Shown piece after piece: positions 10,039 to 19,522 of a DNA stretch of 39,609 bases. A model generated the notes under the pieces. The model was not told the DNA's origin. It searched no databases and saw only the letters and a list, made by a program, of their open reading frames with translations. Both the position numbers and the translations under genes were made by a program. Source of the stretch: Cryomorphaceae bacterium (lineage in GTDB: Bacteria; Bacteroidota; Bacteroidia; Flavobacteriales_D; Cryomorphaceae); NCBI GenBank assembly GCA_003565555.1, contig PXBH01000128.1:1-39609 (forward strand). Reading direction: 5' to 3'. Position 1 is the first letter of the stretch; the number at the start of each line of letters is the position of its first letter.

Positions 10039-10046
10039 TACCTTTG
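10039..10046 (+). promoter_or_regulatory. Bacteroidota -7 promoter box for the lipoprotein gene
   Basis: TACCTTTG is a perfect TAnnTTTG match 40 bases before the lipoprotein ATG at 10086. A second perfect match, TAACTTTG, lies at 10005-10012. Either would exclude or discourage an ATG-like reading start at 10044, supporting 10086 as the true start. No -33 element is clear. Confidence 0.5.
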
Positions 10047-10085
10047 ACCCCGAACCCAAACATATCTCTCCTCTTTCCGACCGGC

Positions 10086-10958
10086 ATGAAAACGAAATTG
10101 AAACCCCTTATCCCCTTGCTTGCAGCGGCGGCCATGCTGGCTGCTTCATGCACAGACGACGAAACGCGCAACCGTCTGGATGCGCTGTCCTCAGAAAATG
10201 AGCAGCTGAAAACCGAATTGAGCAATAAGGATTCTGCACTCACTGTCTTTGAGGAGAGCTTTACGGCCATCCAACGCAATCTCGCGCTGATTTCTGAACG
10301 CGAAGTGGCCATTCAGTTAAAATCCGGTGAGCTCCAAATGAGCGATGACGCCAGAGATGAAATCACCAAAGACATTCAAGCCATTAACAACTTGCTCGAG
10401 GAAAACAAAAAGACGATCAGCCACCTGAGCAAGAAGGTTTCGGATTACGGAACGGAGGTTTCAGGCTTTGAAAAACTCGTTGATCAGCTTCAATCGGATA
10501 TTCGCTCCAAAGAGGAGCATATCAGCTTTATGAAAGAAAATCTGACCGCTGCCAACTTCACCATCGAGATTTTGAATGAAATGCTGGACTCGGCAGAATT
10601 CAGAAACGAGGTACAATCGAGCCTGCTCAAAATTACTACTGACGAACTTTACACGGGGTATTATGCTTTAGGATCTTACAAAGAACTTGAACGCAATGAT
10701 GTTTTGACCAAAGCGGGGAGCATTGCGGGCATTGCCGGGAGTAAACAACTCAAAGAAGATTTCAACAAAGATTATTTTGAAGCAATCAATACCATGGAGA
10801 CCCGGAGTATTCCGCTCCGCGCCAAAAAGGTCGAAATCGTGACCAACCACCCCAGCAACTCTTATACCATTGACGGGGATGACAGCAAAACCTTGCGCAT
10901 CACTGATATTGAGCGTTTTTGGTCGAGTACAAAGTACTTGGTTGTTATCACTGACTGA
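10086..10958 (+). CDS. Predicted coiled-coil lipoprotein of unknown function
   Basis: The 290-residue product starts with a lipoprotein signal (MKTKLKPLIP, a hydrophobic Leu/Ala stretch, lipobox LAASC with Cys22), so it should be lipid-anchored in the envelope. Residues about 28-175 are rich in Glu, Lys, Gln and Leu with heptad-like spacing (SSENEQLKTELSNKDSAL, EENKKTISHLSKKV), suggesting a long coiled coil. The C-terminal 110 residues look globular and end in TDIERFWSSTKYLVVITD. I do not recognise a named family, though such Bacteroidota coiled-coil lipoproteins are often labelled only as hypothetical. It appears monocistronic, with its own promoter box and 285 bases before the next start. 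Confidence 0.75.
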   Translation: MKTKLKPLIPLLAAAAMLAASCTDDETRNRLDALSSENEQLKTELSNKDSALTVFEESFTAIQRNLALISEREVAIQLKSGELQMSDDARDEITKDIQAINNLLEENKKTISHLSKKVSDYGTEVSGFEKLVDQLQSDIRSKEEHISFMKENLTAANFTIEILNEMLDSAEFRNEVQSSLLKITTDELYTGYYALGSYKELERNDVLTKAGSIAGIAGSKQLKEDFNKDYFEAINTMETRSIPLRAKKVEIVTNHPSNSYTIDGDDSKTLRITDIERFWSSTKYLVVITD

Positions 10959-16629: not shown

Positions 16630-18420
16630 TCAGAACGGAAAAAGGAGGGGAAGCAGAATGGTGGCCAATATCCAAAAGCCGATATTCAGGGCCGTACCCA
16701 CTTTGATGAAATCGAGAAATTTGTACCCGCCGGCGCTGAACACCATCGTATTGGTCTGATAGCCCACAGGAGTCATAAAGCTTGAGGAAGCAGCAAACAT
16801 CACTGCCATAATCAGGGGAAGCGGACTCACACCGAGGGCTTCTGCGGCGGCTATGGCAATGGGTGCCATCAGGGCAGCCGTAGCGTTGTTCGACATCATT
16901 TCCGTGAGTAAGGAGGTGGCGAAGTAGATACCCGAAAGAACGGCCACAGGGCCCCAAGGGCCCAATACACCGATGATTTCTCCGGCCAACCTGAGGTCCA
17001 GTCCGGTGTTCTTCATGGCTGTGCCGAGACATAGTGCCCCCGCCAGAAGAAATACAATGCGCCAACTTACCGCACCGTATGCCTCAGACATGGTAATGAC
17101 CCGTGTGAGGATCAAAAGAGTTACCCCGCCGATGGCTCCGGCCATAATATCTACGATATTGAAGGCGGCAAGCCCCACAACGCTTGCAATGACGGCCATC
17201 ACGACCACAAATTTCTTTCGTTTGAAATCCACCATGGGATCTTCAGAGAGCAGAACAAAGGGAGCATCCGCTCCGGCCTCCAATTTTTTCATCTCTTGAA
17301 TAAAGTGCTTCTTCACTTCAATGAGAATTACGTCTCCCGCCTGCATCGGAATGTCATAAAGCTCCGAATGCTTCACCACTTCGCGTGTGCGAATCGCCAG
17401 AGGTACGGCCCGAAACCTTCTGCGGAAATCGACCGTGCGCAGGTTTTTTCCCTCAAATTCAGAGTCGGCGGTGATAACCATCTCCAGAAGCGCCGAATTC
17501 TTTCCTTTCACATCTTCACCACCGATTCGCATGGACTCCTGAACATTAACACGGGCCTTACTTTTCAGACGCTTCATTTTGTCCATGCTGCAATTCACCT
17601 TCAATACATCCCCTGCCTGAAGACAAAAGTCGCCGGGGGGAAAGGTGTAGCGTATGCCGTTTCGGCGCACCTCAAGAATATCCATGGAAAACTCGCGAAC
17701 CAAATCGCTTTCCATAATGGTTTTACCCACATCCTCCGATCGGTCGAGTAGCTCAATCTCCGAGAGGTAGTCGCGTATCCCGAACTTACTGCCCAGGTCC
17801 TCATCGGTAGGGCGTTTCGGAAGCAAGCGTATACCGAAGAACAGCATGTACACCACCCCGATGAAGAACACAAAAATGCCGTATTTCAGGGGTTGAAAGA
17901 TATCGATCGGCGGCAGGCCTTCTTTCTCGGCAATACCGCTGACCAGAATGTTTGTGGATGTTCCGATGAGTGTACAGGTTCCCCCGAAAATGGATGCAAA
18001 TGAAAGCGGAATCAGCATCTTCGCGGGACTCCGACCGGAGGCATGGCCGATCTGAATGACAACGGGAATGAATACCGCCACCACGGGTGTGTTGTTGACA
18101 AAGGCCGACATCGCCGCGATGAGGACCATCATGAGGAGCATGCCCTTGTTAAAATTGTCCCGAAATATCGGTGCGAGTTTATGCGTGAGCATTTGAAGGG
18201 CGCCGGTCTTCAAGAGCGCTGCACTGAGAATAAACATGAAAACCACGGTGATCGTGGCCTTGTTGCTAAACCCCATCACCCCTTGCTCGGGTGTGACTAC
18301 TCCCGTGAATACCAGAACAGAAATAATGAGCAGGCCCACCACGTCCACAGACACCCTGTCCGTCACAAAGAGTACGACTGCGCCGATGATCACGGCTATG
18401 GTAATGAGTTCAGGGGACAA
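16630..18420 (-). CDS. SLC13/DASS family permease with two central TrkA-C domains
   Basis: A 596-residue inner-membrane anion transporter. Two membrane halves flank a cytoplasmic insert. The first half has FVNNTPVVAVFIPVV and the helical-hairpin stretch TCTLIGTSTNILVSG. The second has EMMSNNATAALMAPIAIA and SSSFMTPVGYQTNTMVFS. These paired SNT/NTP motifs are the sodium and substrate sites of the DASS fold. Residues about 215-290 and 305-390 are two TrkA-C (RCK_C) domains (FCLQAGDVLKVNCS, MQAGDVILIEVK), which usually bind a regulatory ligand. The substrate could be sulfate, a dicarboxylate or another anion and is not resolved. The architecture is common in Bacteroidota. A perfect -7 box lies just upstream. 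Confidence 0.9.
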   Translation of the reverse strand: MSPELITIAVIIGAVVLFVTDRVSVDVVGLLIISVLVFTGVVTPEQGVMGFSNKATITVVFMFILSAALLKTGALQMLTHKLAPIFRDNFNKGMLLMMVLIAAMSAFVNNTPVVAVFIPVVIQIGHASGRSPAKMLIPLSFASIFGGTCTLIGTSTNILVSGIAEKEGLPPIDIFQPLKYGIFVFFIGVVYMLFFGIRLLPKRPTDEDLGSKFGIRDYLSEIELLDRSEDVGKTIMESDLVREFSMDILEVRRNGIRYTFPPGDFCLQAGDVLKVNCSMDKMKRLKSKARVNVQESMRIGGEDVKGKNSALLEMVITADSEFEGKNLRTVDFRRRFRAVPLAIRTREVVKHSELYDIPMQAGDVILIEVKKHFIQEMKKLEAGADAPFVLLSEDPMVDFKRKKFVVVMAVIASVVGLAAFNIVDIMAGAIGGVTLLILTRVITMSEAYGAVSWRIVFLLAGALCLGTAMKNTGLDLRLAGEIIGVLGPWGPVAVLSGIYFATSLLTEMMSNNATAALMAPIAIAAAEALGVSPLPLIMAVMFAASSSFMTPVGYQTNTMVFSAGGYKFLDFIKVGTALNIGFWILATILLPLLFPF

Positions 18421-18449: not shown

Positions 18450-18571
18450 TAATTAACTGCAGATCGGCCGCAGTTTTTATCCGAAACAGGCTCAAATATG
18501 CTACGCAAGCCAAAGACCGAAGGGTTCAGCAAACTATACGTTCAGTACTTACAATGGTTTTGCGGAAAATG

Positions 18572-18659
18572 AAAAGACCTGCCCCGAGAGGCAGGTCCTT
18601 TTTTTAACCAATCATTTCAAAAAAACGGGGAAACCACCCCCTTTGAAATAAGATGCTTA
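18572..18659 (-). ncRNA. Candidate structured RNA, copy 1 of a two-copy family
   Basis: Read on the minus strand, the unit has four parts in order. First is the palindromic TAAGCATCTTA (18659-18649). Second is a hairpin with outer arms TTTCAAA/TTTGAAA and inner GGGG/CCCC around a GTGGTT loop (18648-18615). Third is AAATGATTGGTTAA (18617-18604). Last is a GC-rich hairpin GACCTGCC/GGCAGGTC (18597-18576) with TTTTC behind it. The same order recurs in copy 2 about 230 bases away with different stem sequences. No coding gene covers it. The final hairpin also has a seven-T run on the plus strand, so it may work in both directions. Direction and boundaries are inferred. Confidence 0.5.
18576..18605 (+). 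terminator. GC-rich hairpin with T-run, possibly bidirectional
   Basis: The stem GACCTGCC (18576-18583) pairs with GGCAGGTC (18590-18597), and a run of seven Ts ends at 18605 on the plus strand. On the minus strand the hairpin is followed by TTTTCATTTT, so it can also close copy 1 of the repeated RNA-like unit. There is no obvious plus-strand gene upstream for it to terminate. Confidence 0.6.
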
Positions 18660-18793
18660 GCCACTGCAACGTGAATTACCGAGAAAGGTTACCGCTTTTG
18701 GTTTTTAATTTTGGCGGTGAAAGTTGCCGTGACTTGATCTATATCCTACTAAGACCGCAGAAAAACCTTTGAAGGTGGATGTCGAGACGGGCC

Positions 18794-18889
18794 AAAAAAA
18801 ATGACCCGCCTCGTTAGGCGGGTCACTTCTCAATTAACCAATCATTTAACCATTCGGGGTAACCACTCCCCGATACATTAAGATGCTTA
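18794..18889 (-). ncRNA. Candidate structured RNA, copy 2 of a two-copy family
   Basis: Read on the minus strand, the palindrome TAAGCATCTTA (18889-18879) is followed by a hairpin with outer TTAA/TTAA and inner TCGGGG/CCCCGA arms around an AGTGGTTA loop (18881-18846). AAATGATTGGTTAA (18847-18834) comes next, then a nine-pair terminator TGACCCGCC/GGCGGGTCA (18825-18802) with eight Us. The terminator is clearly oriented leftward, which fixes the strand. Compared with copy 1, the stems differ in sequence but still pair, while the loop and both linear motifs are identical. That pattern is expected of a functional RNA rather than of a chance repeat. A TATATTG sequence about 20 bases upstream could serve as a weak -7 box. 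Confidence 0.55.
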
Positions 18890-18979
18890 CTAATTAGGAT
18901 ACAATATACGTGCCGATAACCCTACCTCGAAGCGTTTATTTTTTAGATATCCTCTGTACCCTGTGAATAAAAGCAGTTT

Positions 18980-19030: not shown

Positions 19031-19522
19031 TCATTTGAGGAAAGACTGGAACATCCAGATTTTCTCCTCCGTGCGGATGATCATATTGCGCACCATAAAA
19101 TCAGTTCCGTAATCGTCAAGCTTCAAGGCCTGTTTAACCACCTCGGTCATGGACTTGATCATTGTCTTGTAGTCTTGTACAATCGCCGATATCATTTCCT
19201 CGGCTGTGTGGTCTGCATTGGTCTCTTTGATACCCGCCTTCTCAATGAATTCAGCCATGGTGCTCAACGGTTTAAAGCCGAGTACACGCACGCGTTCGGC
19301 AATTTCGTCGATGTTCTCGGCTCCGGCGAGGTACTCCTCTTCGAGCTTTTCGTGTACGTCATAGAAATCTCCGCCGACAACGTTCCAGTGGAAATTTCTG
19401 AGCTTTTGATAAACCACACTGTAATTGGCGAGCAATTTATTCAGGCTCACGATGAGGTCCAATGATTCTTCTTTATCCATTTGGGGATTTGCCAGTTTCG
19501 TTTCTGCAGTTTTGATATCCAT
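19031..19522 (-). CDS. dps: Dps family DNA-starvation/ferritin-like protein
   Basis: A 163-residue four-helix ferritin-like protein of typical Dps length. Dps dodecamers oxidise and store iron with H2O2 and protect DNA in oxidative stress or stationary phase. The inter-subunit ferroxidase signature is visible: KLRNFHWNVVGGDFYDVHEK, with the conserved His, Asp and His/Glu, followed by EEEYLAGAENIDEIAERVRVLG. The N-terminus is short and poorly basic, so DNA binding through an N-terminal tail is not evident. The gene is transcribed alone and ended by a strong terminator. The two repeated RNA-like units lie directly beyond that terminator on the same strand. Confidence 0.95.
   Translation of the reverse strand: MDIKTAETKLANPQMDKEESLDLIVSLNKLLANYSVVYQKLRNFHWNVVGGDFYDVHEKLEEEYLAGAENIDEIAERVRVLGFKPLSTMAEFIEKAGIKETNADHTAEEMISAIVQDYKTMIKSMTEVVKQALKLDDYGTDFMVRNMIIRTEEKIWMFQSFLK

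Follow-up and report, generated by a model that had tools for sequence, protein, structure and literature searches.

Qrr genes are driven by sigma54. In Vibrio cholerae, the small RNAs (sRNAs) Qrr1-4 are inactivated by the sponge RNA QrrX (PMC9732341), and in Caulobacter the siblings SisA-D are blocked by the sponge CrfA (PMC12559287). In the Bacteroidota, whose base-pairing sRNAs are poorly known, the multicopy sRNAs FopS and GibS of Bacteroides thetaiotaomicron repress translation near the start codons of surface proteins (PMC11697453), and no obvious Hfq or ProQ is seen in Bacteroides (PMC7366714). The main text on FopS does not use the word sponge (PMC11697453), and a search of the open-access literature returned nothing specific on sponge RNAs in this phylum, nor any report of the sRNA family described below or of sRNAs from Cryomorpha or Cryomorphaceae.

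The locus that we analysed lies in a window of 39,609 nucleotides, the whole of the examined stretch of a Cryomorphaceae contig, and is compatible with a system of this kind. We consider it reasonably probable that sibling base-pairing sRNAs are here neutralised by a sponge RNA, which would itself be under the control of a dedicated, self-regulated ECF sigma factor. Qrr1-4 and QrrX share with our locus a set of siblings with one conserved pairing region and one dedicated RNA pairing there, and QrrX, like the RNA that we call anti-seed RNA, is a sponge under its own regulator; however, the sequences are unrelated, Qrr belongs to Vibrio, the sponge regulator is a LysR protein and not, as is likely here, an ECF sigma factor, and a single array of ours combines promoters of different types (PMC9732341). 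SisA-D likewise number four, each with a terminator and a weak hairpin, and have a single-stranded core in common; one of them lies behind a fixed gene, their promoters are unrelated and one sponge blocks all, but their sequence is unrelated, our siblings are mostly in tandem, and Hfq helps CrfA and SisA to pair (PMC12559287). FopS and GibS resemble our units in being multicopy Bacteroidota sRNAs with a single-stranded 5' region and a terminator, and differ in being dispersed, reported from Bacteroidaceae and expressed from housekeeping promoters (PMC11697453). The logic of sibling sRNAs and their sponge is already known; as far as we searched, what is new is the sequence and the phylum, in a system with mixed promoter classes and a sigma factor that seems devoted to the sponge.

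In the window, two RNA units of about 90 nt lie on the minus strand between dps and a transporter gene, each with an intrinsic terminator (Table 1). The first-pass annotation had placed two minus-strand units here with a common order of parts, and the sequence bears out both the positions and the order: TAAGCATCTTA, then a hairpin that encloses GTGGTT, followed by AAATGATTGGTTAA and a GC-rich terminator stem with a T-run. Its description of the units as structured RNA also holds, since the folding of both is much better than that of 200 dinucleotide-shuffled sequences (z -5.1 for unit 1 and -4.6 for unit 2). The stems of the two units differ yet pair, TCGGGG/CCCCGA in one against GGGG/CCCC plus TTTCAAA/TTTGAAA in the other. 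The dps gene is upstream of the array on the same strand, with its terminator-like sequence preceding unit 1, and a CitMHS/TrkA_C transporter gene follows downstream, again on the same strand. Transcription of unit 1 probably starts at G18890, one base ahead of the seed and one base earlier than first annotated; a G occupies position -1 of the seed in 18 of 21 copies of the family, unit 2 having a C, and the predicted 5' end with its leading base is (G)UAAGCAUC.

Table 1. Positions of the sRNA units, their parts and related features, numbered in the window unless a contig of the same genome (G000) is named.
Feature	Position	Strand	Remarks
sRNA unit 1 (G000b1)	18793..18890	-	about 97 nt; ends in the T-run 18800-18793
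Covariance model match, unit 1	18799-18889	-	E 1.5e-22; sequence among the model's own inputs
5' seed TAAGCATCTTA / UAAGCAUCUUA, unit 1	18879..18889	-	complementary to the anti-seed RNA of the same genome, contig C191
Hairpin UCGGGG-AGUGGUUA-CCCCGA, unit 1	18854..18873	-	folds; compensated stem changes across copies
Tail motif AAATGATTGGTTAA / AAAUGAUUGGUUAA, unit 1	18834..18847	-	candidate mRNA-pairing region
Intrinsic terminator, unit 1	18793..18826	-	GC-rich stem and T-run; from sequence and fold
Sigma54-type promoter-like element GGCACGTATATTG, unit 1	18902..18914	-	starts 25 nt before the seed
sRNA unit 2 (G000b2)	18572..18660	-	about 88 nt
Covariance model match, unit 2	18572-18659	-	E 5.7e-19; sequence among the model's own inputs
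5' seed TAAGCATCTTA / UAAGCAUCUUA, unit 2	18649..18659	-	from sequence and alignment
Hairpin UUUCAAA.GGGG-loop-CCCC...UUUGAAA, unit 2	18615..18648	-	folds; compensated stem changes across copies
Tail motif AAATGATTGGTTAA / AAAUGAUUGGUUAA, unit 2	18604..18617	-	from sequence and alignment
Intrinsic terminator, unit 2	18572..18600	-	GC-rich stem and T-run; from sequence and fold
ECF-type promoter-like element GTAACCTTTCTCGGTAATTCACGTT, unit 2	18668..18692	-	type found in 17/21 copies
dps	19031..19522	-	ferritin-like domain, PF00210, E 5e-25; upstream neighbour of the array
Second tandem sRNA pair	G000:C131 2863-2955, 3271-3365		ECF-like promoters on both; away from dps
Shorter RNA with the same 5' end	G000:C148:19109-19119	-	

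A relation to the flavo-1 or Bacteroidales-1 families, which the annotation had put forward for checking against Rfam, found no support. Rfam 15 gave no match at gathering thresholds over the whole window, and the ten matches at E<=1 within 18540-18960, all far below their cut-offs, include neither family; neither scan listed a FopS or GibS match, a result that holds in so far as the library copy includes the FopS consensus said to be deposited in Rfam. About 8 kb from the array, on the plus strand at 10044-10958, lies a lipoprotein gene that by eye resembles the gene following the array in G003-G007, which suggests that the genes in between were inserted in the lineage of the window.

We found evidence for a family of such units well beyond the window. 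A composite pattern matched four sites in the whole genome, two in the window and two on contig C131, and none when reversed, and covariance model R1, built from these four aligned copies and searched in 150 relatives, detected another 16 copies, spread over six other genomes (E 4e-19 to 1.5e-4); the units are therefore not a product of chance, and the further copies anticipated in related genomes do exist. The total is 21 copies, each about 90 nt long and no two identical, in seven of the eight genomes of the window's GTDB family, all of them drafts and mostly MAGs: four in G000, two each in G002, G003, G004 and G007, three in G005 and six in G006, where R1 recovered five and a pattern search followed by reading the sixth. 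R1 found none of the sRNA copies in G001 (81% complete), and no convincing copy was found elsewhere in the order. Matches in five non-family genomes (E 2.6e-4 to 7.8e-4), as well as a fifth match in the window's own genome (G000:C230, E 1.3e-4), were dropped as chance, having mainly the terminator stem in common with the family. The exact composite pattern occurs in one of the 150 relatives' genomes, the window's own, and neither in viral contigs nor in the genome_contigs collection, and a looser pattern retrieved six stretches in five records, one from Cryomorpha ignava QSSC 1-22, whose genus is placed in Cryomorphaceae of the Flavobacteriales, and the other four from MAGs. Across the order, a promoter-plus-seed pattern matched 24 of 399 genomes, 18 of them outside the family and about as frequent as in the reversed control. 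A Dps-like ORF directly precedes an array in 7/7 sRNA-carrying genomes, and wherever the retrieved DNA extends far enough, dps follows a decarboxylase and is followed by the array; the second pair of the window's genome, on C131, is transcribed towards a NUDIX gene.

Upstream of each unit, and beyond what had been annotated at first, lies a promoter-like element of its own, and all 21 copies carry one, at a constant spacing from the 5' motif that follows. An ECF-type element, NNAAC-N15-17-CGT, ends 9-12 nt before the motif in 17/21 copies (background 0.43%) and a sigma54-type element, GGYAYG-N-TTG, starts 25-29 nt before it in 5/21 (background 0.08%), G007_1 carrying both; the backgrounds were taken from random intergenic positions of G005, and these frequencies are descriptive, the motifs having been first noticed in the same copies. 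The sigma54-like copies are the dps-proximal ones of G000, G003, G005, G006 and G007, while the dps-proximal copy of G002 and of G004 is ECF-like. All eight family genomes contain a sigma54 gene. The sigma54 consensus is a -24/-12 element of the GG-N10-GC type, and among the five sigma54-like copies a C after TTG, as in the full consensus, occurs in G006_1 only. With a promoter-like element and an intrinsic terminator each, the units have the predicted make-up of independent transcription units, and the copies would be fired by different sigma factors, sigma54 on dps-proximal copies and an ECF factor on most.

The gene of a second ECF factor, ECF_B (C96), carries GTAAC-N17-CGTC upstream in 8/8 family genomes. 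Its promoter resembles the ECF-like promoters of the sRNAs without matching them, and we rejected ECF_B as the sigma factor of the sRNAs, whose promoters in most cases combine a spacer of 16 nt with CGTT or CGTA, against N17 and CGTC. Downstream of the ECF_B promoter, at about 1.8 kb, 7/8 genomes keep a second GTAAC-N17-CGTC site at a similar distance, which is likely another promoter of the same sigma factor. Separately, GGCACGTAATTTGACATTT at G000:C230, about 60 nt before position 17906 and upstream of the weak model match there, resembles the sigma54-type element of the first sRNA copies and may mark another small RNA.

That a conserved single-stranded motif might be an antisense site had been raised at the outset, and this idea gains direct support from a conserved RNA at another locus of the genome, which complements the 5' motif. 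This RNA came from a search for this complement in nine genomes, and consists of a hairpin, an unpaired UAAGAUGCUUAC and a terminator, upstream of and on the same strand as a gene for a YceI-domain lipoprotein and divergent from a DUF2141 gene. By searching the eight family genomes for YceI and then reading the upstream sequence, we found this anti-seed RNA in six of them, from three genera (G000, G001, G002, G004, G005 and G007). In G002 the site has one mismatch (TACGATGCTTAC), and in G005 the match is shorter (AAGATGCTAAC), one base off the full complement. G003 and G006, which both carry sRNAs and ECF_A, yielded no anti-seed RNA and no close YceI orthologue. Across the order, the anti-seed pattern matched 13 of 399 genomes, five from the family and eight others, these eight being at the level of the reversed control.

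Predicted duplexes between sRNA and anti-seed RNA of the same genome reach -25 to -40 kcal/mol (RNAduplex), and for 13/13 pairs none of 200 shuffles was as strong. The mean energy is -31.6 for same-genome against -29.2 for cross-genome pairs, so coevolution is not supported, since same-genome pairs are little stronger, as is expected if the site has simply been kept. A second contact, between the partner RNA and the sRNA tail, is equalled by 1-16 of 300 shuffles in G005 and G007 and by 11 of 300 for one G000 copy; for the remaining copies 31-140 of 300 shuffles are as strong, so that the contact is little or no better than chance there. At the level of sequence, the anti-seed RNA is a separate RNA complementary to the region that the siblings share, as a sponge would be. 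The siblings, two in the window and two more in the same genome, would be trans-acting, and the anti-seed RNA would inactivate every one of them by pairing at its 5' end.

The position of the anti-seed element admits another reading, in which it is the regulated leader of YceI, with sibling pairing beside the terminator altering read-through and YceI being the conserved target. The paired site does lie immediately ahead of the terminator stem, and in 6/6 genomes the T-run is followed by the YceI start on the same strand within 97-229 nt. However, a strong terminator with a T-run separates the element from YceI, which in 3/6 genomes has an exact TAnnTTTG 32-36 nt before its start, the housekeeping -7 element (PMC7366714); two of the six have the variant TAnnTTCG and G007 has none. 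Moreover, the long invariant 5' end of the siblings is complementary mainly to the anti-seed RNA. We regard the leader as unlikely, and prefer an anti-seed RNA that acts as a sponge.

Such a sponge would come with its own regulator. The anti-seed RNA is preceded by (G)GCAACC-N14/15-CGTC in the five genomes measured and in G002 (CAACC-N13-16-CGTC by pattern in 5/8 genomes, the sixth by reading), with GGCAACC in 5/6 and AGCAACC in G004. The window's genome encodes 12 sigma70-type proteins, and one ECF gene, which we call ECF_A (C44), carries the anti-seed promoter motif just before its start. Orthologues of ECF_A are present in all eight family genomes, each with GGCAACC-N13-16-CGTC upstream. 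In the 2,382,854 bases of G005 that were available (about 55% of the genome) the motif has three sites, of which two are intergenic, and these two belong to the ECF_A gene and the anti-seed RNA. By this promoter match the anti-seed RNA is placed in the predicted ECF_A regulon. At each of the three loci that we viewed, the end of the ECF_A gene is overlapped by an ORF containing a hydrophobic stretch, an arrangement typical of anti-sigma factors, and this ORF probably encodes a membrane anti-sigma partner, a role that we infer. Released from this partner, ECF_A would drive the anti-seed RNA and its own gene, so that one stress would turn the siblings on and another would turn them off. It is possible, albeit doubtful, that ECF_A controls essentially nothing beyond its own operon and a single sponge RNA, and that this stress response mainly erases the effect of the sRNA family. 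If this were true, the ECF_A pathway would have a purely RNA-level output, and the sRNA members would integrate sigma54 and another ECF signal.

Sequence conservation, mostly among MAGs, has in this case been enough to yield the siblings, the RNA that would pair with them and a sigma factor as candidate regulator of that RNA. The wiring of sRNA networks in Bacteroidota becomes testable in this way, and so does the question of whether sponge control arose independently once more. Cryomorpha ignava, if it corresponds to G006, offers a cultured organism with six copies and the sigma factor, in which no partner RNA was found.

The siblings' own targets may lie with the tail. In G005, over the same 55% or so of the genome, 26 of 1866 start regions contain 9-mers complementary to the tail UUGGUUAAAAUGAUUGGUUAAA, against 13.2 in simulated, position-specific regions, and 0/100 simulations had as many. 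Among control 22-mers, 0.15% of those away from gene starts (2721) and 5.8% of those from all intergenic DNA (2366) reach the z of the tail. The start regions of the candidate target genes carry the tail complement AACCAAUCAU, and several matches fall on the start codon (AACCAATCATG) of signal-peptide genes, the bias towards such genes among the matches being weak (15/26, Fisher p 0.04). Pairing of the tail with mRNAs is only suggested by these counts; it would occur at translation-initiation regions and block translation. The complement of the 5' seed showed no enrichment at start codons of G005. One 11-mer match to the seed complement, which precedes a G005 gene by 41 nt (C18:1478), may be due to chance. 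We read the seed as the handle by which the partner RNA would grip the siblings.

Repeated RNA motifs can also titrate a protein, which is the logic of CsrB. In our case the RNAs would titrate an RNA-binding protein through repeated UUGGUUA motifs, and the anti-seed RNA would do no more than free it. The number of copies is compatible with this idea, and so is the repetition of GGUUA, which an RNA can contain as many as three times, beginning in the hairpin loop; multicopy sRNAs that bind the RRM protein RbpB are known in Bacteroides (PMC11697453). On the other hand, G003_1 and G004_1 have another sequence in place of the loop motif, and G006_3 and G006_4 have lost most of the tail motifs, although all four retain the 5' end; the protein partner is hypothetical. 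We judge titration somewhat less probable than a YceI leader, and base-pairing siblings with a sponge remain our preferred reading.

The pattern of conservation along the RNA bears on the least probable alternatives. In the 20 aligned copies, columns 2-11 of the seed UAAGCAUCUUA are invariant, and terminators are present in the 20 copies read. The stem varies among CGGGG/CCCCG, CAGAG/CUCUG, CAGAA/UUCUG and CGGAG/CUUCG, with GUGUCG-UUCG-CGACAC in G003_1, so that per-copy folds substantiate the compensated changes claimed for the two units and extend them to several positions across copies; the innermost pair is an A-C mismatch in G004_2, G005_3 and G007_2. Covariation was read from these folds by counting pairs from the loop outward, over loops of 4 to 9 nt, and we claim no formal covariation score because the pair counts are not column-aligned and the loops vary. 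A 20-sequence model, R2, was built and left unused since its automatic structure lost the first hairpin. The first copy of the G003 array (G003:C11:35475) has a UUCG tetraloop instead of the usual loop, on a wholly different but paired stem.

A short conserved peptide had rightly been ranked as the weaker alternative: ATG ATT GGT TAA (M-I-G-stop) does lie within the tail of most copies, but changes in loop and stem length shift the frame between copies (six copies printed) and no frame runs through all of them, the motif is lost in G006_3 and G006_4, and three codons cannot account for an invariant 5' end or a covarying stem, which makes a coding function very improbable. Several copies that resemble each other, side by side and again at another locus, might also recall a non-autonomous mobile element or a repeat that regulates nothing, but this is just as improbable, given copies limited to one bacterial family, an array at dps in all seven carriers, flanks that are unrelated save for promoter-like elements at a fixed distance, and a complement conserved elsewhere.

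Finally, four shorter RNAs, one each in G000 and G001 and two in G004, share the 5' end and have a terminator but lack the hairpin. Two of these four pass the ECF-type promoter test, and together they may form another class of siblings that the same partner RNA would control.
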